Positions 42,501-58,343 of a stretch of DNA of 64,000 bases are shown piece after piece. The notes beneath the pieces were generated by a model, which made no database searches, had not been told where the DNA came from, and saw nothing but the letters and a program-made list of their open reading frames with translations. The position numbers were made by a program, and so were the translations under genes. The DNA comes from Meiothermus taiwanensis DSM 14542. Lineage in GTDB: Bacteria > Deinococcota > Deinococci > Deinococcales > Thermaceae. The DNA is taken from the NCBI GenBank assembly GCA_000482765.1, contig AXWR01000010.1, positions 1-64,000 of the forward strand, read 5' to 3'. The stretch's first letter is position 1, and each line of letters begins with the position of its first letter.

Positions 42501-45500
42501 TCAGTTCACCTGCACCCGGTACACGAAATACCCACCCTGACCGGGCAGCAGGGCCGGGGCGCTGCCGCCGCCAGGCTGAGGGGCGGTGGGGAGGGTGCAG
42601 AGCGTAGCCAGGTTCAGGGTGATGCTGCTGGTAGAACCCAGGTCGGGCCGTACCACCGCACCACCGGGGCAGACCAGCTCCACCTCGCCGGTGCCGCCGT
42701 AGGCGTTCTGTACCAGGGTGCTGAAGAAGGGGATGGGGTCATAGAGCACCACGTTGAAGATGGGCTGGCTGCCGATGTTCTGGTACTGGATGCGGTATTC
42801 CAGCACCTCCCCGGGCCGTCCCTGGGCGCTGGCGGCGAAAGCGGTGTTCTGGCTCACGTTACGCACCTGCTTTTCCAGCCTTAGCTCCCCACCCCGAATA
42901 ACAGTGGTGGCATCGGTCAGGCCCCTGGTTTCCTGGACGGCAGGGTTGCTGCCCCAGGACAGACTGGCGCTGAGGCTGGCGATATCCACCTGGCCGGCGC
43001 TCACCCCTGCGGGCACCAGTACCTGCACCTCGAGGGCGCACCCTGCCAGACTGCCGTCGGATGCCCGCGGCCAGCCAGAGCCCACACTAAAGCTCTGCGG
43101 TAGCCCCTGGAAGCCCTCGCCAGCGTCGTCGAAGTCGCCATCGCAGTTCACATCGCGGCGGAGTTGGTAGCCAAACTGCGGGGTGTTGGTCAGGGCCAGG
43201 GTAACCGTTCCCAGGGTGCCGGGCTTGAACTGGTGCAGATAGCGCACCACCCCTGGGCTGGTGGTCTGGCCCGACTGGTCGGGCCTAAAGAGCGAGCTGC
43301 GCACCACCCCAAAGTTGCGGGTAAGGCTGGAACCGGCCAGGCTGCTGGCCGAACCCAGGCTAATCACGGCACCGCTGGAGGTGGGGCTTGTGGCGTCGGC
43401 CCAGCTTCCTACCAGGGTGGCGCTGCTCCCGTTGTTCCAGCCGGTGGCCGGGCGCAGGGGGTGGGAGAGGGTCACGCTGCCCCAGGAGGCGGGAATCCAA
43501 AGGGTGTAGCCCCCGTTCCCATCGGTGGCGGCGGTGCGGGTGTAGGTGCCATCGGTGGCGCTGACCACGCTGGCGGCCCCGCGCTCACCCCCATCCTGCA
43601 GGGCGTTGTTGGCCGAGCCGCCGCTCTCGCCATCGTCGTAGAAGACCCGGCCCTCTACCCGCGCGCCGTGGAAGAGGCCAAAGTCCTGGTTCAGCAGGTT
43701 GCTAGCAGCCACGGTGATGGCCCGGCTCCCACCGGCTGGGTTAATAAAATGCCAGCCAGCGGGAGGGGTGGGGGTGGTGTCGGCGGTGCTGTTGTTGTTG
43801 TCCAGCACCAGGCTGTAGCTGCCGGGGGCCACCCCGCTAAAGCTGTAGGCTCCGGTTCCGGGACTCACGGTCTGAACAGCCAGCACCGTGCTGCCCTGCA
43901 CAAGCTTCACATAGACCGTAACCCCCGTGCTCCAGTTCTCGCTGTTCCGCACCCCGTTGGGTTCTAGGTCGTGGTAGACCTGGCCGCTCACGTTGACACC
44001 GGTCACGTTCAACACTGCGCTGGCCGGGCTCTGGTTGCTGCCGTGGTTGGTTTGGAGGGCCCCGGCAGCCAGGGTGTTGGTGTAGCTGCCTGGTGTGCTG
44101 GCAGTGACGCTCACGCTTACAGTACAGCTTCCGTTAGCCGGTATCTGGGCCCCGGCAGCCAGGGTTACGCTGCTGCTGCCAGGCGTGGTGCTCACGCTGC
44201 CGCTGGGGCAGGTGGTGCTGGCATTGGCTGGGCTGGCCACCACCAGGCCCGCGGGCAGGTTGTCCACCAGGGCCGCGCTCAGGGTGGCAGGGGTGGGGTT
44301 GGGGTTTGTGAGGGTAATGCTGAGGGTGCTGGTGCTACCTACGGGAATGCTGGCCGGGGAGAAGGCTTTGCTAAGAGAAGGAGGGTTAGAGACCTGGCTA
44401 TTGGCCGAGACGCTGGCCGTCTGGCTGAAGCTGGTGCCCAGGGTCTGGCTGTTGTAGCTGATCTGGGCGGTGTTGGTGATGGTCTGCCCGCCGGCGCTGG
44501 GCAGCACCTGTACCCGGAAGCGCACGCTGGCGCCCTGGCTCGGTAGGATTAGCCCGCCGCTCGAGGCGTTGGCCCCGGTGCCCAGGCGGAAAACCACGCG
44601 GTTGTTGGCGTTATCAAACTCGGCAATGTCGTCGCCAGCGGCATCGGTAAAGGTGCCGGTGGGGGCGCCAGTGGCGTTGGTGAGCACCTGCAGGCTTCCC
44701 GGCACATACTGGGTTCCGGCAGGAATGGGGTCGTACACGACCACATTGGTGGCCCCGTCCCCCCCAGTGTTAGAAAAACTGAGGGTGTACTCGAGGATAT
44801 CGCCCGGCACCAAGTTGCCCCCGTTGATGTCCTGTCCGGTTTTACTGAAGGAACTGGTCAGGTCGGGAAGGTAGACCTGGGTGGCGAAAGTCAGCACGGT
44901 GGGGAAGTAAACGTCCTGAGAGGAGGTGAACTGGATGGTTGCAGTAGTGGATCCGTTGGGAAGGTGCCCTGTGGCGTCTATTAGGTCGACGTCCACCGCC
45001 ATCTGGTTGAGGTAGTTGGGGGTTTTGGCAGTGAAACGGGTACCGAGTTGAGATACAGAGCTGTTGAAGAAGTTGTTGCTAGGGTTTTGTGCGTCGCCAA
45101 GTGGTACTCCATTCAGCACCAGTTGGTCACCTGTGATGCCGCCATCCCCCTCAAAGGCCACTGCCCCCAGGTAGGTGGTAAAGGAGCCTGTGATGGGGGT
45201 CAGGAAGCCGCTGGGGGTGATGGTGACGGGGTTGCCGTTGCTTACCGAGGCCAGCCCGTTGTAGACCGTGAGGTTGCGGAGGGGCTCGCTGGACAGCCGG
45301 TAAACCACCACCAGCGACCAGCCTGCATAGAAGCCCAGCCCGTCATTGCCGGTGTCAGCCAGGATACCCCCTACCCAATAGGAGCCGTTGCCGCTGGCTT
45401 GCACGAGGTCGGTTACATCAGCAAAGGCGGTGTAAGGGCGGGTGGTAGGGGTGCCCTGGTTTGTGATGGTGCCAATGAGGCTGCCCGAGAGGGGCTGGTA

Positions 45501-45932
45501 GGTGCTGCTCCCCGGAGGTTTGATGGAGATCTGGTTGCGGCCAGCGGCGTTTTCACCTGTTCTGGCACCCCAGTAAAGACCGGCAAAGAGTACCTGGGCC
45601 CCGGTGGGCAGGGAGAGGGTGGCGGCGCTCGAGCCTCCCCGGCCTGAAGGCCAGGTAGGGTTGGTGGGGTCGGCGTTGATGAAAATCATGTTTCGTGTGG
45701 TATCGAGCTGGTTGCTGGAAGTTACCGCCGTGTTGTTTTGGCTTGAATTATTCATCCGGGTTGTATCGCACTGGGTGGTGGAGTTGGCCTGACTCATGCA
45801 CATTAGGGTGTTGCCCACCAGCATGATGTTGCCATTGGTGGTGTTTTGGTAGCGGATGCTAAATGAGGTTACCACCTGGGCCTGGGCCAGGCCCAGGAAC
45901 GTGAACAGGGCCAGGAGTAGGATGCGGTTCAT
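42501..45932 (-). CDS. Surface operon gene 5: secreted DUF11/SdrD-like protein
   Basis: 1143 aa from the ATG at 45932, with AGGAGG 7 nt upstream lying within the end of gene 4 (ATGA overlap). Signal peptide MNRILLLALFTFLGLAQA. Modules: unique region 20-350, DUF11-type repeats about 354-510 and 514-640, two SdrD-B/prealbumin-like domains (VSGQVYHDLEPNGVRNSE near 647; VEGRVFYDDGESGG near 757), then a block near 884-1143 with a D-x-N-x-D-x-D loop (DVNCDGDFDDAGEG) and the last DUF11 domain. The block resembles the C-terminal block of gene 2. The last strand is FVYRVQVN. Likely a cell-surface fibre or layer component. Confidence 0.75.
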   Translation of the reverse strand: MNRILLLALFTFLGLAQAQVVTSFSIRYQNTTNGNIMLVGNTLMCMSQANSTTQCDTTRMNNSSQNNTAVTSSNQLDTTRNMIFINADPTNPTWPSGRGGSSAATLSLPTGAQVLFAGLYWGARTGENAAGRNQISIKPPGSSTYQPLSGSLIGTITNQGTPTTRPYTAFADVTDLVQASGNGSYWVGGILADTGNDGLGFYAGWSLVVVYRLSSEPLRNLTVYNGLASVSNGNPVTITPSGFLTPITGSFTTYLGAVAFEGDGGITGDQLVLNGVPLGDAQNPSNNFFNSSVSQLGTRFTAKTPNYLNQMAVDVDLIDATGHLPNGSTTATIQFTSSQDVYFPTVLTFATQVYLPDLTSSFSKTGQDINGGNLVPGDILEYTLSFSNTGGDGATNVVVYDPIPAGTQYVPGSLQVLTNATGAPTGTFTDAAGDDIAEFDNANNRVVFRLGTGANASSGGLILPSQGASVRFRVQVLPSAGGQTITNTAQISYNSQTLGTSFSQTASVSANSQVSNPPSLSKAFSPASIPVGSTSTLSITLTNPNPTPATLSAALVDNLPAGLVVASPANASTTCPSGSVSTTPGSSSVTLAAGAQIPANGSCTVSVSVTASTPGSYTNTLAAGALQTNHGSNQSPASAVLNVTGVNVSGQVYHDLEPNGVRNSENWSTGVTVYVKLVQGSTVLAVQTVSPGTGAYSFSGVAPGSYSLVLDNNNSTADTTPTPPAGWHFINPAGGSRAITVAASNLLNQDFGLFHGARVEGRVFYDDGESGGSANNALQDGGERGAASVVSATDGTYTRTAATDGNGGYTLWIPASWGSVTLSHPLRPATGWNNGSSATLVGSWADATSPTSSGAVISLGSASSLAGSSLTRNFGVVRSSLFRPDQSGQTTSPGVVRYLHQFKPGTLGTVTLALTNTPQFGYQLRRDVNCDGDFDDAGEGFQGLPQSFSVGSGWPRASDGSLAGCALEVQVLVPAGVSAGQVDIASLSASLSWGSNPAVQETRGLTDATTVIRGGELRLEKQVRNVSQNTAFAASAQGRPGEVLEYRIQYQNIGSQPIFNVVLYDPIPFFSTLVQNAYGGTGEVELVCPGGAVVRPDLGSTSSITLNLATLCTLPTAPQPGGGSAPALLPGQGGYFVYRVQVN

Positions 45933-48900
45933 CGGTGCCCTCCTAAAAAGTCCAGGCGCAGATAGAAGCCGGGGGCGGTATCGGGGGTGAGGCCGGTAAA
46001 GCCGCCGACGGTGTAGCCCAGGTTGAACCACAGGCCCTCCACGATCCGCAAGGAGGCCTCCAGGGAGAAAGCAGTGGCGTTGCTTTGGGTGCCGGGCTGG
46101 AACTGGTAGTATACCCCCCCGCCCAGGCCCAGCCAGTCGGTGAGGTAGTAGTTGGCCCCCAGGCCGAGCTGGTAGGTGTTGCCGCTGGGGTCGTCGAGCT
46201 TGAGGCGGTAGGCCAGGCTGGGGCGGAGCTGGAAGGAGAGACCGGGGTGATAGCTGCTGGCCAGGGCCCCTTCGAAGATACGCTCACCCACAATGCTCAG
46301 GCGGTGGTAGGTGAGCAGCGACACATCGCGCCCGCGCAGGGCGTAGGCCAGGGTGAAGCGGCCTTCGGAGGTGGGCAGAACCTGGTAGCTGGCATCCAGC
46401 GAGAGGGTCTGCTGCTCGTCGAGCTGGCCGGTGGCCCCGGCCCGCAGCACCACCTTGGGCTGCCCCGCGCTCCAGGCGGTCTCGCCCCCCAGGGTGGCGG
46501 TGAAGCCCTGGGCCTGGTAGCGCAGGGCCAGGCCAAAGGCAGCCTGATCCTGGCCGGTGCTGAGGCTGCGCTCATAGCCGGCGCTGGCGTTCAGGCTCCA
46601 ATGTTCGGAGAGGGGGAGCGGGGCCTCCAGGCCAAAACGGGCCCGGTTGCCCTCGCCGGAGGCACCGGGGAGCTGGTAGGAGAGCGAGAGGTTGCTTCCA
46701 CCCAGTTTCTGCTTGAGGCCGAGCTGGCCGCTCATGCCCAGGCCCCAGGTCTGGATCAGGTCGGCCTCGGCGGTGAGGTTGGCATCGAAGGCGTAGGTGC
46801 TTCTGAGGCGGGTGGAGGCGCTTTTGGTCAGGCTGAAGGGCTGGGCGTGGGTCAGTTCGGTGCTCAAGGGGCCGCTCTTGAAGCCCAGCCGCCCCAGGCT
46901 GGCCCAGGCTGCTTCCTCCCAGGTGTAGCCCAGCCCGGCCCCTACCGAGAAGCTCTGGGAGAGGCGGCGGGTGTAGAGCAGGCCGGTGCGGTTGCTGGGG
47001 CCGGTCTGGTGCTCGAGGCTGAGGCGGTCGGCCTCGCTCAGGTTGTAGGAAAGTTGGGCCTGGCCCTGGAGCCTGCCTTCGTAGGTCAGGTTGGTGCTGG
47101 CCTCTAGGGCCCCGTTTTTACCGGAGAGCTCGAGGCCGTACCGCTCCGCCGTACCCCGGCTGTAGCTCACTTTTACGCCAAAGCCGGGTGGCTGGTAGGC
47201 GGCCTCGGCCCCGTAGCGCCAGCCCTGGGCGGGCAGGTAGGCCGCTCCCAGCCCAAGGCTAAAGTCGCCGGCCTTCCAGCGGGCCCCGGCCCCGTAGCCC
47301 AGCTCGCGCTGCCCGCCCTGGGGGGCGTAGGTGACCTCGAGGTAAACCGGCTGGAAGTCGGGGTCGCTGGGCCAGAGGGGTCTGCTCAAGGTGAGGAGGC
47401 CGGTATCGGCGTCCAGCACATAGTCCTTGAGACGCTCGAGGCGGGTCTTCTGGCTTCCCACCCAGAGCACCACCTGCTCGCTGCCGGGCTCGGCCGGGCT
47501 GGACAGCCGGTAGTAGCGGGTGCCGTCGGGGGTGATGCGCTCGGTGCGGCTGCCCGCAGGCAGGTAGCCCACAAAGCCCTGCAGGGCCAGCTCGCCGCGG
47601 GTCTCGAGGCGCAGGGCCGTGCCCTGGGGCAGTCCGTCAACCCCAAAGACCGCCAGCTTGTCGGCGTAGTAGCCCAGGCTGAACCCCTCCTGGTCGTAGC
47701 GCAGAGCAAAAGGCTCATCCGAGCGCAGGGGGAGGGTGGCCTCGTTGCCAGCGCCGGTGAGGGGGAAGCGTCCGGTGGGGTCGGGCTGGTCGCGCAGGTT
47801 GGATTGCAGCCGGGGCTGGCCTGCTTCAAAGCGCAGCGAACCGTCCAGCGCGCCTTGCAGGAGGCCCGGGCCCAGGGGGCTTTCCAGATAGCCCCGCCCC
47901 AGCCCGAACACCTGAAGGCTATCGCCAAGGCGCACCCCCAGGCTTCCTTGAAGCTGCCACAGGGTGCTCTGGCGGCCCAGCACGAAGAATTCGTTTTGCG
48001 CTTGCAGTTCCCCGGTTGCCAGCCGCAGGCGCAGGGTGGTGGGGGTGGGGGTGGGCTTCAGGCGCAGCCGGGCCACCCCGTCCTTCAAAAGCACCTGGTA
48101 GCCCGAGAGCAGCGGGAAGGCATCCTCCTCCAGAGGTTCTAACGAAGCCTCTACCGTGAGAGGGCCAAAGCCCGAGGCCAGGCCCAGCGCATCCACGGCC
48201 CGCACCTCGAGCTCCAGCGGGGTGCGGCCATCGGCCAGCAGGCGCAGGGGGCGTACTTCCAGCCGCACGGGGCTACCGGCCAGGAAGACCTCCACCCGAT
48301 CCGAGCCCAGGGGGGTCTGCACCTCGATCAGGTTGCGGCCCGGCTGCAGCGGCAGGCCGTAGTACTCCAGGCGCTGCAGGCCGAGGGCGCTGTCGTAGGT
48401 GGCCTGGCCCAGGAACCTGGAGTCTACGGGGGCCCCGTTCACGGTCAGACGGGTCTCGAGGCCGTTGGGGGTTTGCAGCACCACCCGGGCTTTATCGCTG
48501 CGGAACACACTGCCGGGCATGGGCTCCTGGATGAAGCCGTCGCGGGCTGTAGCCACGATGGGCTGGGCTTTTTCCAGGTCGGCCAGGCGCTGCTGGCCCT
48601 GCAGGTAGACTTCCCGGTCGCCTACCTGCGCGGTCAGGGTGGGTTCGGGTATGGGGCCCAGGGCCTCGCGGTGGCGGAGCTGGTAGGTGAGCTGGCCCTG
48701 GCGCTGGTAGGGCAGCTCGAAGTAGAGGCGGCCCTTCTCGTCCTGGCGGGGGTCGGGGATGGGGCGGCCATCCAGCCGGGCTGAACCGGGTTCGTAGGTG
48801 CTTTGGGCGGGGGGCTGGTGGGTGAGCAGCAGGCGCTCGAAGGGGGCGCTGCCCTGCACCTCAAAGTCCAGGGTGACGGTGGAAAGCCGGCGGGGCTCGA

Positions 48901-51439
48901 GGATGGGCAGGGCCTGCAGGGTGGCTTTGGCGGGGAGGGAGGCCGGGGTGCTGCCCACAAAGGCCGTGACCTGGTTGTCGAGCGAGCCCACCCGTTCGGC
49001 CCGGGCCTCCAGCTCCATCTCCCGCACCTCGCCGGGCTGTAGCGTAAATTCCAGGCTTTCCGGCAGGCTCACCCGCAGGCCCTCGGCGGGCGACTCCTGC
49101 AGGCGCAGGTTGAGTGGGTGATCGGTGGGGTTGCCGAGCCGAATGGTGAAGCGGGCCTGGCCGCCCACCAGCACCCGGCCCGGTTCCACGGTCTTCTCGA
49201 GCTGCACCAGCACCCGCTGGAGGCTGTCGGGCGCGCTGGGGTGGCCGCCGTTGGAGGTGAGCTGGGCCAGGAACGACCCCTCAGCCGCCGGGCCAAAGCG
49301 CACCCGGGCTTTATAGAGGTGGGTGGCGCTGGCGCCGGGGGCCAGTTCACCGCTAAAGACCGGGGTTTGCGCCACCTCCAGCCACTCGGGGTGGCTGTCG
49401 CGCAGCTCGTAGTTCAGGGGGGCCTGGCCGGTGTTGCGCACCACCAGGCGCACCTCTACTTCTTCCCCCGGCACCACCCGGCGCTTATCCAGCGAGCGCG
49501 AGAGCTCGGCCACCGGGCGCAGCACCCGCACCTCGGCCTGGGCCGTGGCGATGAGGCTGCCATCGGGCCGGAGAAGCTGGGCCTGGTTGACGAGGAGGCT
49601 GGGGGCTGCCTCGCCCACCGGGCTGCGCACCTGGAAGCTGCGTCTTTCCCCCGGGGATAGCTCAAAGATCTGGTCAAACCCCACGGGCTCGTCCTTCAAG
49701 CGCACCTGCCCTTTTTCATCCCCGGTATTGGTTGCCGTCAGCTGCCATACGGCCTCATCGCCCACGGCCACCTGGGGGGTCAGGGCTACTTTCTGCAGGG
49801 TGAAGGTGGCCGGCCGAATGATGCTCAATCGGGCACTGGATTTTTGCCCCCAGGGGCTCAGGGTGGCGCCAACCTCGGGCTCGCCCTTGCACAGGGCCCG
49901 GGCCCGCACCTGCAACACCGCCTCGCGGCCCTGGGCGATGGGGGCCAGCAGGCGGGGGGCCTCGAGGGCCTCCAGGCAGGGGGGCAGTTCAAGCTCGAGG
50001 TCGGCGGGCAGCAGGCGCGGGAAGGCGGTGGTAGCGCGGGCGGTCAGGAGGGTCTCCTCGCCTACGCGCAGATGGGCCGGGGCGGCCTCCAGGGTCAGCC
50101 GAACCTCTGGATAGACTTTGAAGCGCACCTGCTGGGTCTGGTTGGTCAGGAGTTCCACAACCGAGGGCCCCTCGATGCGGGCCCCACCCAGTTGGGGCAC
50201 GAGGGGGTAGGTGCCCGGCGCCAGGCTCAGACGGGCCCGGCCCTGTTCAAGTGCCACGGGCTGTTCGTTTACTGTGAGCGGCAGGTCGAAGGGCTGTTCG
50301 CCCTCCGGCAGCACCAGCACCGCCTCGAGTTCCAGGGTAGACGCGGGCGGAGCGGCGGGGCTTGTTGAAGCGGGGGCTGGCCTTTCCACCACATAGCGCA
50401 CCAGGCCGCCCGCACAGCCGAAGCGGGCAGTATGGGCATCCAGGGCTTCCCCGCCTTCTACCTCCATCCGCACCAGGCGGTACCCCTCGGCCAGGGCCGG
50501 CAGCCGAAGGGTGCGGATCTTGTCGCCCTCCACGCCAGGGGTGATCTCGAGCGGCCGTCCGGCGGTGTCCTGCACCAAAGCCTGCACCGGGCGCGGGGGC
50601 ACCACCCGGAAGGCCTCCCGCTCCACTTCCATACAGGCGTCCACCCGGAAGCCGATGGTGTTGGAGTACTGGGTGGCGGTTCTGGGCTGGCGGAAGCCGA
50701 AGCGCACCAGGCCAGGCCGCCGGATATCGAAGTAGGCCCAGGTTCGATCCCCGGAGACGGGCCGGGCCTCTGTGCTTCCGTCCTGCCAGCGCACCCGGCC
50801 CTCCATCTCCTTCGGGCCATCCTCGTCGTAGAAGCCCACGCGCAAGGGCAGCACCTCGGGGCTCACGTTGAGCACGAAGGGCTCGTGCCAGTCCTGCCCC
50901 CGGATGGTGGCCACCGAAAGCGGGGTCACTGCCTGAAAAGGCCGGACGTCGTAGAGCTGAAGGGTGGGGTCTATGAGCAGTTCGGCGGCCTCCGGCACAC
51001 TGGTCTGGATGCGGTAGCGGAAGGCGTTCTTGCCCAGGCCGGCCAGGCGGCTCTTGAGCAGGTAGACCCCCGGCTCCACCTGGCCCCGGAAGAACAGCAC
51101 CCAGCGGTGCGGCTCCACGCTAAAGTTCTCCTGGGCCAGCACTTTTCCATCCCGGATCAGCACAAACTCGGCCAGCATCTGACCTCGGCCCTTGTCGTAG
51201 CGCTCATCGCCGAGTTCTTCCTGGCCCTTTAGGGCCCGGCGGTAGTCGGTGGGGTCGAAGCCAGGGGAGTAGATCTGAAGGTTCAGGATGGTGGGTTTGC
51301 TTACCACCACGCTGGCCCGCAGCTCCTGGATTTCCCAGCCCAGCGCGTCCCCCGGCACGATGCCCTTGAGGTCGGTACGGGTTTGGCCCAGGGCCGGGAA
51401 GGCCAGCAGCAGGAGGAGCGGAGCAAGCCAGCGTCTCAT
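45929..51439 (-). CDS. Surface operon gene 4: giant outer-membrane barrel protein
   Basis: 1836 aa. Signal peptide MRRWLAPLLLLLAFPALGQ. Residues 20-530 are beta-rich without a named family; DUF11-like repeats at about 535-950; Ig-like/invasin-like region near 973-1145; and from about 1150 or 1380 to the end a long series of amphipathic strands (GLGYTWEEAAWASLGRLGFK, FGLALRYQAQGFTATLGGET, LGLGANYYLTDWLGLGGGVY) that reads as a beta-barrel of roughly 20 strands. It ends GFYLRLDFLGGHR. It probably anchors the neighbouring secreted proteins in the outer membrane. ATGA overlaps with genes 3 and 5. Confidence 0.75.
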   Translation of the reverse strand: MRRWLAPLLLLLAFPALGQTRTDLKGIVPGDALGWEIQELRASVVVSKPTILNLQIYSPGFDPTDYRRALKGQEELGDERYDKGRGQMLAEFVLIRDGKVLAQENFSVEPHRWVLFFRGQVEPGVYLLKSRLAGLGKNAFRYRIQTSVPEAAELLIDPTLQLYDVRPFQAVTPLSVATIRGQDWHEPFVLNVSPEVLPLRVGFYDEDGPKEMEGRVRWQDGSTEARPVSGDRTWAYFDIRRPGLVRFGFRQPRTATQYSNTIGFRVDACMEVEREAFRVVPPRPVQALVQDTAGRPLEITPGVEGDKIRTLRLPALAEGYRLVRMEVEGGEALDAHTARFGCAGGLVRYVVERPAPASTSPAAPPASTLELEAVLVLPEGEQPFDLPLTVNEQPVALEQGRARLSLAPGTYPLVPQLGGARIEGPSVVELLTNQTQQVRFKVYPEVRLTLEAAPAHLRVGEETLLTARATTAFPRLLPADLELELPPCLEALEAPRLLAPIAQGREAVLQVRARALCKGEPEVGATLSPWGQKSSARLSIIRPATFTLQKVALTPQVAVGDEAVWQLTATNTGDEKGQVRLKDEPVGFDQIFELSPGERRSFQVRSPVGEAAPSLLVNQAQLLRPDGSLIATAQAEVRVLRPVAELSRSLDKRRVVPGEEVEVRLVVRNTGQAPLNYELRDSHPEWLEVAQTPVFSGELAPGASATHLYKARVRFGPAAEGSFLAQLTSNGGHPSAPDSLQRVLVQLEKTVEPGRVLVGGQARFTIRLGNPTDHPLNLRLQESPAEGLRVSLPESLEFTLQPGEVREMELEARAERVGSLDNQVTAFVGSTPASLPAKATLQALPILEPRRLSTVTLDFEVQGSAPFERLLLTHQPPAQSTYEPGSARLDGRPIPDPRQDEKGRLYFELPYQRQGQLTYQLRHREALGPIPEPTLTAQVGDREVYLQGQQRLADLEKAQPIVATARDGFIQEPMPGSVFRSDKARVVLQTPNGLETRLTVNGAPVDSRFLGQATYDSALGLQRLEYYGLPLQPGRNLIEVQTPLGSDRVEVFLAGSPVRLEVRPLRLLADGRTPLELEVRAVDALGLASGFGPLTVEASLEPLEEDAFPLLSGYQVLLKDGVARLRLKPTPTPTTLRLRLATGELQAQNEFFVLGRQSTLWQLQGSLGVRLGDSLQVFGLGRGYLESPLGPGLLQGALDGSLRFEAGQPRLQSNLRDQPDPTGRFPLTGAGNEATLPLRSDEPFALRYDQEGFSLGYYADKLAVFGVDGLPQGTALRLETRGELALQGFVGYLPAGSRTERITPDGTRYYRLSSPAEPGSEQVVLWVGSQKTRLERLKDYVLDADTGLLTLSRPLWPSDPDFQPVYLEVTYAPQGGQRELGYGAGARWKAGDFSLGLGAAYLPAQGWRYGAEAAYQPPGFGVKVSYSRGTAERYGLELSGKNGALEASTNLTYEGRLQGQAQLSYNLSEADRLSLEHQTGPSNRTGLLYTRRLSQSFSVGAGLGYTWEEAAWASLGRLGFKSGPLSTELTHAQPFSLTKSASTRLRSTYAFDANLTAEADLIQTWGLGMSGQLGLKQKLGGSNLSLSYQLPGASGEGNRARFGLEAPLPLSEHWSLNASAGYERSLSTGQDQAAFGLALRYQAQGFTATLGGETAWSAGQPKVVLRAGATGQLDEQQTLSLDASYQVLPTSEGRFTLAYALRGRDVSLLTYHRLSIVGERIFEGALASSYHPGLSFQLRPSLAYRLKLDDPSGNTYQLGLGANYYLTDWLGLGGGVYYQFQPGTQSNATAFSLEASLRIVEGLWFNLGYTVGGFTGLTPDTAPGFYLRLDFLGGHR

Positions 51440-54144
51440 GGGTACCTCCAGCGCACCTGGGGATCGGTTAGATGGGGTGTGCCTTCCAGGTCGTAGGTGA
51501 GGGTCTTCTGGCCCTGGAACTGCACAAAGTGGAAGCTGCGCTCACCGCCGCCGGGGAGGGGGTCGGTGAGGGTCAGGTCGGTGAGGGGCTCGTCGGATTC
51601 CAGTACCAGCACCACTCGAAAACCCTCTGGTAGCGGCAGCAGCTTTTTGCTAAGGCGCAGGGGGCCAAACTCCAGAACGGTCTCGCGCTGGGCACGGGCC
51701 AGGCCCGCTGGGCGCTCGAGGGGGAAGTCGCTCACGGTCAGGCCCTCCACCCGTACCCGGTGGCGGTAGCCCGCCCCCTGGGCCTCGGGGTGGGGGAGGG
51801 GCGGGAAGGGGGCCGAGGCCGGCTCGAGCATCACCTCCCACACCCCGCCGGTAAGGTTGCGGAAGCTGTAGCGCCCCTCGGCATCGGTCAGGGCCTGCCA
51901 GCCGTTGCCGAGAATCACTCGAGCCCCCGGCAGCGGCACATCCAGGCCGGCGGTGTACAGACCGTCGCGGTTGGTATCCAGAAAGACCCGGCCCACCAGC
52001 AGATGGGGTACGGCCAGCACGCCCTGCTCGACCTGCACCGAGGCCGAGGCCACCGCGCTGGCTACCGCGCTTCCGCCTGCGCTATCCCCGGTGGCCTGCA
52101 CGGTGTTTTTCAGCTCGCTACCGGCCCCCGCCAGCACCCGCATGCGGTAGCGAAGCTCCACCCGCGCCCCGGGGGCCAGGGTGAGGTTTTCCCAGACCAG
52201 GCGGCCGTTTTGCAGAACGGGTTCCGTGGGGCTGGCGCTACCGGCCAGGTATTGCAGGTGGGGGTCGGGGGTGTCTTCCAGGCGCACCGTGAGGGGAACC
52301 TGCCCCACATTGACCGCGATCAGGGTGTAGGTGAGCAGGTCGCCCACCTTGACCTTTCTGGGCTCCACCCGCTTTTCCAGAAGCAGGGCCGCCGCCTGCA
52401 CCCGCAAGGTGACGCTGTTGGAAACCAATGGGTTGCCAATATCGGCAGAACGCAGGCTGAAGCGGTTTACAATGGCTACATTGTCGGGCACGGCGGCGTT
52501 AACCCGCACGCGCAGGCGCAGGGTGAGGGTGCTCCGGGCTGCCAGCGTCAGGCTCCAGCGCACCGTGCGGCTTCCGGGGTCGAAGACCCCCCCGTCGGAA
52601 GCTGAGAGGAACTCGAGGTGGGCCTCCAGGGCATCTTCAATTTGCACGTTTGAGAGGGTCAAGGGCAGCGGATTCTCAACCTGTAAGGTGTATTCCACCC
52701 CCTGCCCGGGACTCACGATGGGCCCGCTCGAGCTGTTCTTGAACAGAACGATCTGAGAAAGATCCCAGACCTGTGCGACGCGATCCACGGTGGGGTCGGC
52801 GCTGCCAGTGCTCCCCGAGCGAGCCAGCAGGCTGAACTCAAAGGCAGGTGTACCGGCAGGCAGGGCCGATATGCAGGCCTGGAAGTCCAGGGTGTTTCCT
52901 GGGGCCAGCGTGATGGGGGTGGGCAGGCTGGCCCCGCCCATGGTGCGGTAGGTCAGGTTCACGCCGCTGGGCAGCCCAAGAGCCTCCAGGGTATAGGTAT
53001 CGGGTGCATTGCCGCTGTTGAGCAGGGTATGGTGAAAGCAGTAAGGCTGCCCGGCCAGCACCTCGGCTTCCTGCCGGTCGGCAGCGCCTGCGGCCTGCGG
53101 GTTGCCGATGGGCCCCAGGGCGTGGGCGTAAAGGGCGGCAATTTGCAGCGAAACCTGGGTCTGTGCGCTGCTTTCGCTGGAGGTGGCACGGGCCAGGTTA
53201 ATCCGCTCGCCCGGCGCGGTGTCGGCAGCGACCTGCATCCGGAAGCTAAAGACGGCTTCCTCGCCCACCTCGAGGCCATCCAGCACCAGCCGGAGGCCGC
53301 GCACGCTGGCGGGCTCGAGGCTGCTCCAATTAGCCCCGTCGAAGTACTCCAGGCGGCCTTTAACCGCACTTGCAGAGCCAGCCAGATATGCCAGGCCGCT
53401 CAGTTCGGGCACATCCAGCCGATCCTCTACGTAAACTGGCCCGCTGGCGCGCGCACTGCCCAGGTTTTGTACCCGCAGGGTGAAGCCCACGCTCTGGTTT
53501 TGTCGAACCGGGTTCGCATCCACCGACTTGGCCAGGCTCAAAGCTGGCCCGCTGCCGATGCGAATAGCGCCAAAGTTATCCTCATCGCGCGTACCGTCGG
53601 GGCAGGAGGCCACAGGGCTAATCAGCAGCTCGCCGCTGGCTGAGGGTGGGGTCTGTACGGCCATAACCAGCCGCACCTCCTGTCCCATATCCAGGGAGAG
53701 GCTGCTAACTTCCGGCTCGCCGGGGTCGAGCTGGGCGTTGGCGTTGACATCGAGATAAAAGCGCACTGTGCTGGGTGTCCAGGCGGCTCCGTTTTGCAAC
53801 CAGCTCAGGTTGAACAGAAAACTTTGATTTCCACTGTTTTGCAAGCGATAGCTAAAATAGGCGGTTCCACCGGCTGGAGCAGTGGTGCGCTGGCCGGGGC
53901 TGGCAAGGTTGCCGTTGGGGGTCATGGCCGGAACGCACACCGCCTGTACCCGGGTCTCCACCTCGTTGGATAGATACACCTGGCCGTTCACAATGGCCGC
54001 AGCCTGGTTGCGAATTACCGTCCCAGCGGGCGCAGCCCAGGCCAGGTGTAAGCAAAACAACACCCATGCCAAACCTGCCCAGAGGGTGGAACCCTGGCTT
54101 CTCCTGGCCCTGTGGGCAGTTGGTATGGGTGCTTGGGTTTGCAT
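51436..54144 (-). CDS. Surface operon gene 3: secreted DUF11 protein
   Basis: 902 aa. Basic N-terminus then a signal segment (LAWVLFCLHLAWAAPA). Residues 37-165 (PAGTVIRNQAAA, SPGQRTTAPAGGTAYFSYRL, NSGNQSFLFNLSWLQ) are homologous to the N-terminal block of gene 2. DUF11 repeats begin near 201, 464 and 584, and a SdrD-like domain near 717 (GRVFLDTNRDGLYTAGLD). Asp-rich loops (YLDVNANAQLDPGE) suggest calcium. It ends PQVRWRYP and overlaps gene 4 by 4 bp. Confidence 0.75.
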   Translation of the reverse strand: MQTQAPIPTAHRARRSQGSTLWAGLAWVLFCLHLAWAAPAGTVIRNQAAAIVNGQVYLSNEVETRVQAVCVPAMTPNGNLASPGQRTTAPAGGTAYFSYRLQNSGNQSFLFNLSWLQNGAAWTPSTVRFYLDVNANAQLDPGEPEVSSLSLDMGQEVRLVMAVQTPPSASGELLISPVASCPDGTRDEDNFGAIRIGSGPALSLAKSVDANPVRQNQSVGFTLRVQNLGSARASGPVYVEDRLDVPELSGLAYLAGSASAVKGRLEYFDGANWSSLEPASVRGLRLVLDGLEVGEEAVFSFRMQVAADTAPGERINLARATSSESSAQTQVSLQIAALYAHALGPIGNPQAAGAADRQEAEVLAGQPYCFHHTLLNSGNAPDTYTLEALGLPSGVNLTYRTMGGASLPTPITLAPGNTLDFQACISALPAGTPAFEFSLLARSGSTGSADPTVDRVAQVWDLSQIVLFKNSSSGPIVSPGQGVEYTLQVENPLPLTLSNVQIEDALEAHLEFLSASDGGVFDPGSRTVRWSLTLAARSTLTLRLRVRVNAAVPDNVAIVNRFSLRSADIGNPLVSNSVTLRVQAAALLLEKRVEPRKVKVGDLLTYTLIAVNVGQVPLTVRLEDTPDPHLQYLAGSASPTEPVLQNGRLVWENLTLAPGARVELRYRMRVLAGAGSELKNTVQATGDSAGGSAVASAVASASVQVEQGVLAVPHLLVGRVFLDTNRDGLYTAGLDVPLPGARVILGNGWQALTDAEGRYSFRNLTGGVWEVMLEPASAPFPPLPHPEAQGAGYRHRVRVEGLTVSDFPLERPAGLARAQRETVLEFGPLRLSKKLLPLPEGFRVVLVLESDEPLTDLTLTDPLPGGGERSFHFVQFQGQKTLTYDLEGTPHLTDPQVRWRYP

Positions 54145-54213
54145 GGGCTCTTGCTTTGGTTTATTCCCTACGAGGGCTCAGAGGCCCTCGCAGGGATGGG
54201 TATGTAATCCGGC

Positions 54214-56907
54214 TTACTGCACCTGCACGCGGAAGCTGAGGGTAATGGTAGCTCCGGGTGGCAGGATGTCGGCGTTGGTGATGGTGTTGTCACCGTTGGT
54301 GTCTACAGCCACGTAGAGGGTCTGGCCTGAAGACAGCGTGGTTGGGGCGGTGGTGCTCCAGGTGCTCCCGTTGGTCGAGTAGAGCACAGTTCCGCTGAAG
54401 CCGCTGATGCTGACGCTTGCGCTTACAAAGCTGGTGTAGCTGGGCAGCGGGTCGCTCACCACCACCTGGGTCAGATTGCCCGTGCCGATGTTCTGGGCCA
54501 CCACGGTGTAGAGGATCTGGTCGCCGGGCAGGGCCACCGCTGCGTTGGCATCCCGTACAGTGCTGCTGCTGCCCACGTAGCTCACCGCGCTCTTGGTCAG
54601 GCGCAGGTCGCCACCCACCACGGTGGTGGTTTCCGAGGCTGTGGCGGTGGCCGTAGTGCTGGCAATGGTGCAGCTTGCGGTCAGGGCATTGATGTCGGTG
54701 CGCCCGATGGGCTGGCCGGCCGGGGTCAGCACCCGCACATACACCACCTGGCTGCCACCGTTGGCCGCCACTGCAATGCTGCTCAGACTGGAGGCCCAGG
54801 TGCTGCCATCCAGCGAGTACTGATAGGTCCAGCCGAAGCTCCCGCCGCTACCGGAGATGCTGCAGGTGGCAGGGGCGTTGGAGCTGTTGGTCAGGGTGTG
54901 GGTGTACTGGATGGTGCCGGGGCTGGTCACAGTCCCGCTGCGGTTGGGCGTCAGGCTTACCTGGGCCACCAGGTTCACGTCCACCGCGCCGGCGATGGTG
55001 TCGCTCACGCTGGGCAGGGTGGTGCTGGTAGCGGTGAACTGTACGTTATCGTTGGTGCCAGCGGTTACATCCACGGGGGCAGCACCGTTGGGCACCTGTA
55101 CGGCTGCGATGAAGCAAGCGATGGTGCCTGCATTGATCAGGCCGGTGCTGCTCACAGGGGCCGGGGTGGGGGTGTCCATCACGCCGTCGCAGTTGGTGTC
55201 GGGGTAGAAGAGCGCCGTCCAACCCGCGGGCAGGTTGGCCGTGAGGTTATAGGTATCCGGGTTGGCGCCCGTGTTGTTGACCTCGAAGGGGAAGTAGGCC
55301 ACACCGCCAGGGTTGACCGCAGGGTTGTAACCGGGGCGGGTGTCGTTGGCGGGGTCAGAACCTTCACCGCCGGAAGCCCCGTTGGTGTTGTGGGCGACAT
55401 CCAGGCTGTAGCCCAAGACCACGTTGGTCACGGCCAGGGTGGTTGCATCCACCCCGTCCAGCAGGGTGCCCACGCTACCGCTGGGGTTGTTCACCGAGGT
55501 TGCGGTCAGGGTCACGCTGCCGCCGGTGGTCTGGCTGGCCGGAATGGTGCAGCGCACCACCACGTTGTAGGTTGCACCGGCCGCCAGCGGGCCCACCGGG
55601 CCGGAAAGCGGGGTTACGCCGTCGGATTGCAGGATGGTGCAGGTGCCCAGGGTGCTGGTGCCCAGGCTGAGGGTGAAGCTATCGGCGGCGTTGCCGGTGT
55701 TTTGCAGGGTGGAGTTGAAGGTCACCGTGCTGCCGGAAGTGGCGGTGGCAATGGTCTGGGTATCGGCCCCGTCTATAGCGCTGGCCCCGGTACCGCCGAT
55801 AGCCACGCTGTAGCGGCTGGCCGCGGTGTTGTTGGTGGTGTTGGAGGTGGTGATCTGGTTGGCGGTTCCGTCGTTGTACTGGACGGTGGCCGTGTTGGGG
55901 TAAGAGGTGCCAGCCGGGGCGTTGGTAGGTACGGTGACCTGGAAGCTAAAGGTGTAGGAGGCGGTCTGGGGGAAGAAGGCCCCGCTGCCGCTGATGAACA
56001 TACCTACCCGGTTGGAGCCGTTGCCCACGAAGGGGAAGGCAGGGGCGGTGGTACTCCAGGTGGTGCCGCCGTTGGTGCTGTAGACGATTTGCACGGTACC
56101 AGCGCCTGCGCTACCGGTGGGGGCGGCGGGCACGCTCAGGCCGGTGGGGATGGTGTCGGAGATCAGGATGCCGGTGCCGGTGAGGCCGCTCACGCTCACA
56201 CCGCTGGCAGCACTGCCGCCGGTGTTGGCGCCGGAGATGGTGTAGGTGATGGTGCTGCCGGGGGTGACAGGGCCTGAGGGGCTGGCCGATTTAGTGGCGG
56301 TGAGGATGGCTGCGGTGGTGGCGATGGCCCGGGCCCAGTTGTTGTTGTCGGTGGTGGTGGGGCTGCCTGCCGAGGTGCCTACTAGGTTGAGGTTGCCAAA
56401 CTGACCGCTGGTAGCCGAAGCGGGAATAGTGCCGGCCACGATTACACAGGCGCTGGCACCCGGGGTGCCCTGGCGGCTCAGGGTGACGCTGGTGATGGGG
56501 GTGGTTTCACCGGAGTCGAGCGTGCCGTTGCAGTTGGCATCCAGGTAACGGGCAGTCCCGGTCAGGTCGAAGTTGTCACCCGTATCCTGCGCTAGGGTCA
56601 GGTTGATGGTATCTGTGCCGTTACCGGTATTGCTGACCGTGTAGCTGAAGTAGACCGGGGCGCCGGCCAGGGCCGTGCGGGTCTGGCCGGGGGTGGTGGT
56701 GCTGCCGTCGGGGGTGATGCTAAAGCTGTAGACCTGTTGCACCACCGTGATGACCTGGTTGGAGGTGGTGGTGCGGGGCTGGCCAGCGGAGTCTATGTAG
56801 CTGGCTGAGGCCTGGTTGGAGATGTTGGTGCCAGCAGGCGTCTGCTGAGCGAAGGCCAGGCCCGGCAGCATCAGCGCTGCAAGCAAGATGGGATAGATTC
56901 TCTTCAT
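54214..56907 (-). CDS. Surface operon gene 2: Ser/Thr-rich DUF11 surface protein
   Basis: 897 aa, Thr/Ser/Asn-rich. Signal peptide MKRIYPILLAALMLPGLAFA. N-terminal block about 22-150 (PAGTNISNQASASY, TPGQTRTALAGAPVYFSYTV) shared with gene 3. Dxx-x loops YLDANCNGTLDSGE, YPDTNCDGVMDTP and VDTNGDNTITNAD recall dockerin/EF-hand calcium loops. YSTNG(G/S)(T)TWSTTAP occurs twice and YSLDGSTWASSL once. The C-terminal block (652-897) is shared with gene 5. Ends SFRVQVQ. It looks like the major structural protein. It follows gene 1 after 15 bp. Confidence 0.75.
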   Translation of the reverse strand: MKRIYPILLAALMLPGLAFAQQTPAGTNISNQASASYIDSAGQPRTTTSNQVITVVQQVYSFSITPDGSTTTPGQTRTALAGAPVYFSYTVSNTGNGTDTINLTLAQDTGDNFDLTGTARYLDANCNGTLDSGETTPITSVTLSRQGTPGASACVIVAGTIPASATSGQFGNLNLVGTSAGSPTTTDNNNWARAIATTAAILTATKSASPSGPVTPGSTITYTISGANTGGSAASGVSVSGLTGTGILISDTIPTGLSVPAAPTGSAGAGTVQIVYSTNGGTTWSTTAPAFPFVGNGSNRVGMFISGSGAFFPQTASYTFSFQVTVPTNAPAGTSYPNTATVQYNDGTANQITTSNTTNNTAASRYSVAIGGTGASAIDGADTQTIATATSGSTVTFNSTLQNTGNAADSFTLSLGTSTLGTCTILQSDGVTPLSGPVGPLAAGATYNVVVRCTIPASQTTGGSVTLTATSVNNPSGSVGTLLDGVDATTLAVTNVVLGYSLDVAHNTNGASGGEGSDPANDTRPGYNPAVNPGGVAYFPFEVNNTGANPDTYNLTANLPAGWTALFYPDTNCDGVMDTPTPAPVSSTGLINAGTIACFIAAVQVPNGAAPVDVTAGTNDNVQFTATSTTLPSVSDTIAGAVDVNLVAQVSLTPNRSGTVTSPGTIQYTHTLTNSSNAPATCSISGSGGSFGWTYQYSLDGSTWASSLSSIAVAANGGSQVVYVRVLTPAGQPIGRTDINALTASCTIASTTATATASETTTVVGGDLRLTKSAVSYVGSSSTVRDANAAVALPGDQILYTVVAQNIGTGNLTQVVVSDPLPSYTSFVSASVSISGFSGTVLYSTNGSTWSTTAPTTLSSGQTLYVAVDTNGDNTITNADILPPGATITLSFRVQVQ

Positions 56908-56922
56908 GTATTTTCCTCCTAT

Positions 56923-57441
56923 TTATCGCACGACAACGCGAAGCGTAAGGGTAAGGGTCTGTTGGGGCTCTATTTGCGGAATAACCCAGCGGGCGTGGGT
57001 GTATTCTTCGGGTTTGACTTCTACTTCCTTCTCTACCTCCTTGCCGTTTTCCACAACTTTGAGTTTTCGCTTGAGGGGGGGTCGGCCATAGCTTTTCCCT
57101 CCGTCAAAGCTAAACTCGGGAACAACCAGGGTATCTCCCAGGCGCAAAGGCAGTGCGCTTTGGGCCTGGTAGGCGGTGGTGGGGGGGATAGGAATGACCA
57201 GCGCCACCTGACGAAGCGGGCTGGTGAAGGTGTTCAAGGCGGTGAGTTGGTACTGGATGATCTGGCCTGGTTTTGCATCCAGGGCGGGCTCGAGCCGCTC
57301 GACGGTACGGCTTTGCTCCTGCACGCTCACCACCCGGAAGGCCTTGAGATCAAGCCGTATGTCGCTGCTGGCTTGAGCCAGGGCCAGACCAATCAGGCAT
57401 AGTAGGCCTGTACCAAACCGCCACCCAAAGTGTTTCATCAT
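56923..57441 (-). CDS. Surface operon gene 1: small secreted DUF11-like protein
   Basis: 172 aa from the ATG at 57441 (GAGGAG 7 nt upstream; a second ATG follows directly). Signal segment FGTGLLCLIGLALAQ. The mature part is a single DUF11-type beta-sandwich (IIQYQLTALNTFTSPLRQVA, VIPIPPTTAYQ) with a Lys/Glu-rich insert (KLKVVENGKEVEKEVEVKPE), ending LTLTLRVVVR. It opens the five-gene operon. Confidence 0.72.
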   Translation of the reverse strand: MMKHFGWRFGTGLLCLIGLALAQASSDIRLDLKAFRVVSVQEQSRTVERLEPALDAKPGQIIQYQLTALNTFTSPLRQVALVIPIPPTTAYQAQSALPLRLGDTLVVPEFSFDGGKSYGRPPLKRKLKVVENGKEVEKEVEVKPEEYTHARWVIPQIEPQQTLTLTLRVVVR

Positions 57442-57454
57442 CCTTGCTCTCCTC

Positions 57455-57493
57455 AAAAAAAACAACGACCGACTCAAAAAAAAGAGCCGGTCG
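57455..57493 (-). terminator. Intrinsic terminator in the surface-operon leader
   Basis: On the minus strand CGACCGGCTC (57493-57484) and GAGTCGGTCG (57475-57466) form a 10-bp stem with a T8 loop; TTGTTTTTTTT follows (to 57455). It lies only about 14 nt before the start of gene 1, so it must be read through for the operon to be expressed. Confidence 0.8.
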
Positions 57494-57504
57494 CGCCACT
57501 GGCT

Positions 57505-57543
57505 ACCTCCAGCCCCATGGCGCCCGTGTGGGGGACTGGAGGT
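57505..57543 (-). promoter_or_regulatory. Leader hairpin upstream of the surface-operon terminator
   Basis: ACCTCCAG and CCCC (57543-57531) pair with GGGG and CTGGAGGT (57516-57505), a 13-bp stem with one bulge and an 11-nt loop. Together with the terminator it makes a two-hairpin leader of about 120 nt. Confidence 0.6.
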
Positions 57544-57567
57544 CATCACCTCTCAAAGGGGCAGTTT

Positions 57568-57597
57568 AGTAGAGATTTTTCTGGTGTTTGTGACAAA
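57568..57597 (-). promoter_or_regulatory. Candidate promoter and operator of the surface operon
   Basis: TTGTCA (57596-57591), 17-bp spacer, TCTACT (57573-57568). The palindrome TTTGTGACAAA (57587-57597) covers the -35 box and is a possible regulator site. Confidence 0.55.
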
Positions 57598-57860: not shown

Positions 57861-58343
57861 TTACGGAATGAGAACCACCCGCGCAACCATGTTGCGAAAA
57901 TGCATGGTGCCGGCGGTGGCCAGGCCGCTATCGAGCTGTATCCCTATCCAAAGGTTGCCGCTGTTGATGCCGTCGGTTAGTTTAGAACCCCTCAGCTTCA
58001 GGGTTTGAGTAGGGCTGGACTGGAAGTTGGCCGTGCCAATCTCTTCAAAGCTCGTGTTGCGGTCGCAGATGTAAAAGCCTTGGCTCTGGGTGCTGCACGG
58101 TTCTGTATCGGTGGCGTAAAAAGTGAAGGAAACCCCGGTTTTGTAGGTAAGGTTGCCCTCGAGTTCAACCCTGGACAAGCTGACTGGAGGCCGGTCGAAG
58201 CTTTGTTTCACAAACACAATTTTGTTGTTCTGAATAGCCGCCACGTCCACATCAAAATCGCGCAGGGCCACGCTCAAGGGCGCATTGCTACAGCCGAACA
58301 AAAGACCGCTAAGAACAAGAAGCAGCAGTGAGAACGAACGCAT
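57861..58343 (-). CDS. Lipoprotein of unknown function
   Basis: 160 aa. Signal peptide with lipobox (LLLLVLSGLLFGC; Cys18). The mature domain is beta-rich (LTYKTGVSFTFYATDTEP, LWIGIQLDSGLATAGTMHF), with a Cys pair at about 82 and 93. It lies 37 bp after pyrC on the same strand and could be read through from it, but nothing links it to pyrimidines. No family recognised. Confidence 0.7.
   Translation of the reverse strand: MRSFSLLLLVLSGLLFGCSNAPLSVALRDFDVDVAAIQNNKIVFVKQSFDRPPVSLSRVELEGNLTYKTGVSFTFYATDTEPCSTQSQGFYICDRNTSFEEIGTANFQSSPTQTLKLRGSKLTDGINSGNLWIGIQLDSGLATAGTMHFRNMVARVVLIP

Follow-up and report, generated by a model that had tools for sequence, protein, structure and literature searches.

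Are the five adjacent genes g1–g5 of Meiothermus taiwanensis DSM 14542 unrelated secreted genes that happen to share a transcript, or do they encode the parts of one dedicated assembly? The genes lie in a window of 64,000 nucleotides (assembly GCA_000482765.1, contig AXWR01000010.1, positions 1–64,000), all on the minus strand, spanning 57441–42501. An earlier note, made from the letters of the window alone, had proposed that they make up one assembly, in which several long partners are combined with a single outer-membrane anchor. Our analysis indicates that the five genes are kept together as a unit, that g4 ends in a predicted barrel of unusual size, and that the leader of g1 carries a match to a riboswitch class named for cyclic dimeric guanosine monophosphate (c-di-GMP). 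We consider it probable that the Deinococcota have in this cassette a dedicated outer-membrane system, with g4 anchoring and/or exporting proteins of the DUF11 type to build an adhesive surface structure, and that this system is induced by c-di-GMP in some lineages. The features on which the argument draws are as follows.

57476–57562, minus strand: c-di-GMP-II-GAG riboswitch aptamer match (RF03169) in the g1 leader
57465–57494, minus strand: intrinsic terminator hairpin with T-run, the putative expression platform
56923–57441, minus strand: g1, small predicted secreted protein (172 residues) with one DUF11-like domain
54214–56907, minus strand: g2, predicted secreted DUF11 protein, 897 residues
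51436–54144, minus strand: g3, predicted secreted DUF11 protein, 902 residues
45929–51439, minus strand: g4, 1836 residues, an immunoglobulin (Ig)-like region followed by a very large predicted C-terminal beta-barrel
45932–48019, minus strand: C-terminal barrel region of g4 (residues 1141–1836), about 39–40 strands predicted by AlphaFold2
42501–45932, minus strand: g5, predicted secreted DUF11/DUF7933 protein, 1143 residues

A conserved five-gene unit

The operon unit starts in the leader at 57562, upstream of the g1 start. As described in the earlier note, the genes are closely spaced on one strand, with 15 bp between g1 and g2, 69 bp between g2 and g3, and ATGA overlaps at g3/g4 and g4/g5, and each of the five opens with a signal-peptide-like segment, as judged by eye. 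For g5, the start codon was taken to be the ATG at 45932 and not the GTG given in the list of open reading frames (46031), which falls within g4. Compared with two close relatives, the ratio of nonsynonymous to synonymous substitution rates was 0.08–0.37 across g1–g5.

The proteins also share modules, and both homologies proposed in that note were recovered: the N-terminal parts of g2 and g3 aligned at 30% over 406 columns (E 2e-28), and the C-terminal parts of g2 and g5 at 29% over 277 columns (E 4e-18). In addition, g1 was similar to the final domain of g2 (E 1e-5). DUF11 scored above the Pfam cut-off of 24.6 bits in g2 (31.6 bits), g3 (102.9 bits) and g5 (50.4 bits) and marginally under it in g4 (24.5 bits); g5 further matched DUF7933 at 128.5 bits. 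No Pfam match was found for g1, in which a DUF11-type repeat of NCBIfam appeared below its cut-off. The partners had been described as DUF11/SdrD-like, of which the DUF11 part applies to g2, g3 and g5; the SdrD-like matches in g3 and g5 stay under the cut-off. All six DUF11 matches of the genome are located in this operon.

The distribution of the genes was followed in 50 Thermaceae genomes by individual searches with g1, g2, g4 and g5, g3 having no separate search; all conservation counts given here are uncorrected for shared ancestry. We found g4 in 37 genomes, g2 and g5 in 38 each, and g1 in 37. All four were present in 36 genomes and absent from 11, leaving three mixed cases: one with a short g5-like remnant only (G022), one with g1 only (G038), and one, 85% complete, with g4 and g5 and no g1, whose g2 match falls in the g5 region (G021). 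When 35 regions from 34 Thermaceae genomes were fetched, 27 had all five genes in order and eight were partial, six of the latter being cut by a contig end. Across the phylum, relatives of g4 (E 1e-10) were present in 62 of 111 genomes. Among 15 loci from 14 genomes of other families, searched with profiles made from Thermaceae only, g1–g4 were ordered in eight (L152, L153, L154, L156, L157, L159, L161 and L162) and the complete five-gene order was seen in five (L152, L156, L157, L159 and L162). The remaining seven loci include one with only a g3-like and a g4-like gene (L158) and several that stop short at the end of a contig or of the fetched region.

Because several families preserve the gene order and the genes are mostly present or lost together, we regard the five as a dedicated cassette, as the earlier note had proposed; that they form a unit is well supported by these comparisons. 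Scattering in relatives, which that note had named as evidence to the contrary, was not seen apart from two loci in which g5 lies away from g4 (L070 and L067). The opposite view, that g1–g5 are unrelated secreted proteins merely placed on a common transcript, can appeal to the fact that DUF11 modules are common and recombining, but the order kept across families and the joint presence and loss make it very hard to credit.

A second, diverged g4-like gene was found in four Meiothermus genomes (G007, G012, G019 and G020). Immediately upstream, overlapping it by 1–4 bases according to gene calls made here, is the gene of a DUF11-type protein that is similar at its end to the C-terminal third of g3. 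This partner exceeds 2600 residues in L093, and in L092 the upstream frame is split into several. No adjacent g1- or g2-like gene was matched in these paralogous cassettes, weak domain matches aside, and the g3-type/g4-type pair is therefore the smallest form seen.

The predicted g4 barrel and its known counterparts

The barrel of g4 had been estimated at about 20 strands, a figure that two AlphaFold2 models replace with about 39–40. The model of residues 1141–1836 had a mean predicted local distance difference test (pLDDT) score of 83.3 and a predicted template modelling (pTM) score of 0.73, with 8 strands ahead of an insert and a further 32 that begin at residue 224. For the Thermus scotoductus homologue, which is 51% identical, the corresponding values were 82.3 and 0.75, with 7 + 32 strands. 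Both runs used the identical 20 rows in changed order. The count excludes six short strands of the insert and keeps several other short ones, and the true number could be a few lower. The models were used without coordinates, and closure of the barrel was judged from the ranges of alignments to known barrels, which extend from at or near the first strand through to the last in all 50 rows listed in one set and in 43 of the 50 in a second.

A Foldseek search gave LptD, FimD and PapC as the top matches of the barrel, and only barrels among the matches listed; the query-normalised TM scores were below 0.3, SprA appeared at rank 48, and a closer relative may still exist. Barrel-type Pfam matches in g4 fell below the cut-off, and a sequence search of solved structures returned no g4 relatives at E 0.1. 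As a computational prediction, a C-terminal g4 barrel of unusually large size is well supported, and it would lie in the outer membrane.

Such a barrel might be a large channel for uptake or for moving something other than the products of g1–g5, with the DUF11 proteins serving as binding or capping parts. The presence of LptD and nutrient receptors among the best Foldseek matches, as well as ushers, would fit this idea. However, matches at these TM scores are generic, and no enzyme or transporter gene lies within the conserved unit, so that we consider a channel of this kind improbable.

Known ushers, such as FimD and PapC of the chaperone-usher pili, have 24 strands. They resemble the cassette in combining a barrel with Ig-like subunits and in having an insert inside the barrel, and they were among the top fold matches; in contrast to those systems, this genome had no match to Usher (PF00577), which was matched in the E. 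coli control, and membership in the chaperone-usher class is thus unsupported. The barrel of Deinococcus SlpA, in the surface-layer deinoxanthin-binding complex (7zgx, 8agd), has 30 strands. It is likewise a large barrel and comes from the same phylum, but g4 had no SLH match, and the fold-search match was merely generic.

A further counterpart is the type IX translocon protein SprA/Sov, which resembles the g4 prediction in being a very large single-chain outer-membrane barrel, of 36 strands against the about 39–40 predicted here. According to the available text of a 2020 review, SprA was the largest outer-membrane barrel identified, with a 7 nm pore able to hold folded cargo (PMC7463736). SprA_N had no match to g4 at E 0.01. 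The search of the whole genome with SprA_N was also empty, but the control genomes were likewise without a match, which makes this search uninformative. The Por_Secre_tail cargo domain (TIGR04183), which covers this signal type only, had no match in the genome and was matched in 2 of 14 controls. The own-genome searches thus give no support to membership in the type IX system.

A bolder version of our proposal, which we put forward only tentatively, is that the cassette is an undescribed export and surface-assembly system, so far found in the Deinococcota. Here g4 would be a single-chain translocon barrel larger than SprA, the cargo would be DUF11 proteins recognised via their C-terminal domains, the g3-type/g4-type pair would be the minimal form, and c-di-GMP antitermination would operate in some lineages. 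If the predicted size holds, the barrel would exceed SprA as described in the text cited above (PMC7463736) and would raise the question of a second origin of giant-barrel export. As a separate observation, matches to the central part of g4 in Calidithermus chliarophilus (L073:8204–14152) are arranged in another order than in the query, as if domains had been shuffled.

The riboswitch in the g1 leader

The aptamer match in the leader of g1, which the earlier note had missed, scored 51.6 bits against a gathering score of 40 (E 2.9e-7 for the window), and its 3′ end is overlapped by a terminator hairpin of 11 pairs, 7 of them G–C. The aptamer was also recovered by a model from which it was itself excluded, based on 27 riboswitches that lie elsewhere in Thermaceae genomes than before the cassette. 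With the same model, a switch was found before g1 in three further Meiothermus genomes (G009, G017 and G005) and in G070, which belongs to another family according to the genome search and whose contig (L110) is named 'Thermaceae bacterium isolate M10'. The G070 switch passes the canonical c-di-GMP-II family RF01786 (55.4 against a gathering score of 53.5), and this match and the Rfam name are the basis for assigning a ligand to the GAG variant.

In all five cassette switches, a terminator hairpin with a T-run starts 14 to 18 bases ahead of the aptamer 3′ end, whereas the same script found a terminator sharing the aptamer 3′ end in 0 of the 27 other riboswitches. The riboswitch match with its overlapping terminator is well supported. 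Since the hairpin takes its 5′ arm from the aptamer, the two structures should be mutually exclusive, and ligand should give read-through. On this basis, c-di-GMP would be expected to activate the operon in the switch-bearing lineages, where we infer both ligand binding and the ON direction from the sequence.

A comparable logic is known from Clostridioides difficile, in which, as far as the available text of PMC6366702 describes, four class II c-di-GMP switches are ON switches and two of these precede predicted adhesins. The likeness to the C. difficile adhesins and PPEP-1 lies in a class II aptamer that precedes genes for large proteins of the surface (presumed for the cassette), in the ON logic (predicted for the cassette) and in a protease gene behind a riboswitch of this class elsewhere in the genome (PMC6366702). 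The differences are that the cassette has a barrel anchor rather than a sortase, that the aptamer is a GAG variant and that the protease is a subtilase.

The idea of a riboswitch before every cassette was rejected, as switches were found at 5 of 39 g1-bearing loci (the window, 30 Thermaceae loci and 8 loci of other families). This fraction is a lower bound, obtained with default search filters, and one locus, L162, starts too close to g1 for judgement. The four switch-bearing Meiothermus genomes failed to group as one clade when a tree was built from g1–g4 joined end to end and read without support values for its deeper nodes, so that either one gain followed by loss or two gains are needed. 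Aptamers of the RF03169 family occur in 74 of 111 genomes of the phylum, and their recruitment to new genes is therefore easy to imagine.

Proposed role and other riboswitches of the class

In the model that we favour, g4 would be seated in the outer membrane by its very large barrel, would extend a long Ig-like arm, and would anchor and/or pass g2, g3 and g5, with g1 as an adaptor or cap. Outside the cell, the three DUF11 proteins would then assemble into a fibre or coat that serves adhesion. Where the riboswitch is present (here, in three related Meiothermus genomes and in one from another family), it would let RNA polymerase pass only at high c-di-GMP, and the surface structure would be made on the shift to sessile life. 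Surface location, export via g4, fibre formation and adhesion are thus all proposed rather than observed. A surface fibre or coat appears to fit best because a giant barrel gene stands beside genes for DUF11 proteins, because these are kept or lost together, and because they are apparently under c-di-GMP control where the switch exists.

A precedent for DUF11 proteins at the surface is GhlA of Litorilinea, which was proposed, with cryogenic electron microscopy, to build hook-like surface filaments, and which is homologous to GhpA of Aureispira (PMC13319060, available text). Like the cassette products, these grappling-hook proteins are envelope DUF11 proteins, and GhlA itself was seen as a long surface filament. 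They differ in that GhlA, as described there, lacks a signal peptide and carries 49 DUF11 domains on a single chain of 6596 residues (PMC13319060), whereas the cassette, known here from its genes alone, encodes three DUF11 proteins of ~900–1150 residues and g1, with signal-peptide-like starts and a barrel gene of its own.

The DUF11 proteins and the Ig-like arm of g4 might instead tie the outer membrane to inner layers across a wide periplasm, with g4 serving mainly as a tether. The long Ig-like N-terminal region ahead of the barrel is consistent with such a scaffold, signal-peptide-like starts lead only to the periplasm, and no surface sorting signal was identified in the proteins. However, 11 of the 50 Thermaceae genomes live without the genes, c-di-GMP control is more in keeping with a factor for attachment than with a structural scaffold, and relatives of the DUF11 proteins form external filaments in the work on GhlA, in so far as its available text goes (PMC13319060). 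We therefore think that a periplasmic scaffold is unlikely.

Several observations nevertheless count against an adhesive surface system. No export machinery beyond g4 was identified, and the DUF11 and Ig-like proteins could remain periplasmic. A single set of 20 sequences underlies both barrel models, which may be wrong about the number of strands or about closure. As seen from the Thermaceae genomes that lack all four searched genes (11 of 50), the whole cassette is dispensable, and in L070 and L067, where g4 has no adjacent g5, a g5-like gene was located on a different contig of the genome. With respect to regulation, the presence of the switch at just 5 of the 39 loci means that c-di-GMP control is not general, and 14 switchless cassette loci (12 from Thermaceae and 2 from other families) had no RNA at Rfam gathering scores. 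Finally, the terminator criteria were set after the first four cassette leaders had been viewed, and the 27 control riboswitches are related and include tandem copies.

No description of the cassette or its riboswitch was found in the literature searched, which comprised the titles and the beginnings of abstracts of open-licence papers. Within that literature, the parts are of known kinds, and their combination, phylum-wide spread and barrel size are undescribed. The cassette is a candidate surface-assembly system across much of a phylum, and its riboswitch offers a genetic handle, as removal of the terminator would be expected to lock the operon on. The contrast in terminators between the cassette switches and the others makes c-di-GMP control of Thermaceae surface proteins directly testable.

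Upstream of the cassette, at 57861–58343 on the minus strand, is a small lipoprotein-like gene that also occurs in ten fetched Meiothermus regions; it had no Pfam or NCBIfam match.

The only other riboswitch match found in this genome is on contig C51, before a gene for an S8 protease (subtilase) with a lipobox-like motif. A GGDEF gene is located two genes downstream of the protease, and a gene for an HD-domain response regulator lies divergently upstream; we count this c-di-GMP-related neighbourhood in favour of the model above. At this locus (L095:5067–6631), the protease frame opens within the aptamer. Indeed, in 9 of 11 riboswitch–S8 loci the frame starts at a GTG inside the aptamer, closely preceded by GGAGG; for three of these nine (L095, L050 and L051) there is no alternative ATG, GTG or TTG outside the aptamer ahead of the lipobox. 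The aptamer of the S8 loci may thus be part of the coding region, a position that suggests translational, perhaps OFF, control. In C. difficile, c-di-GMP-controlled adhesins are paired with a protease that releases them, according to the available text of PMC6366702; that the S8 protease might similarly act on the cassette proteins is a guess from this analogy.

Further riboswitches of this class, in part as tandem copies, were also seen in Thermus (L044, L046, L033, L034, L032, L039 and L043), before small secreted proteins with an N-terminus like MRKLVALMALLAGLALAQ. Four of these proteins, from L044, L046 and L033, had no Pfam match, and at several of the loci a chaperone-like gene follows the small secreted protein. 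The highest numbers of c-di-GMP-II-GAG matches, above every other genome listed, were 16 in G096 and 18 in G097.

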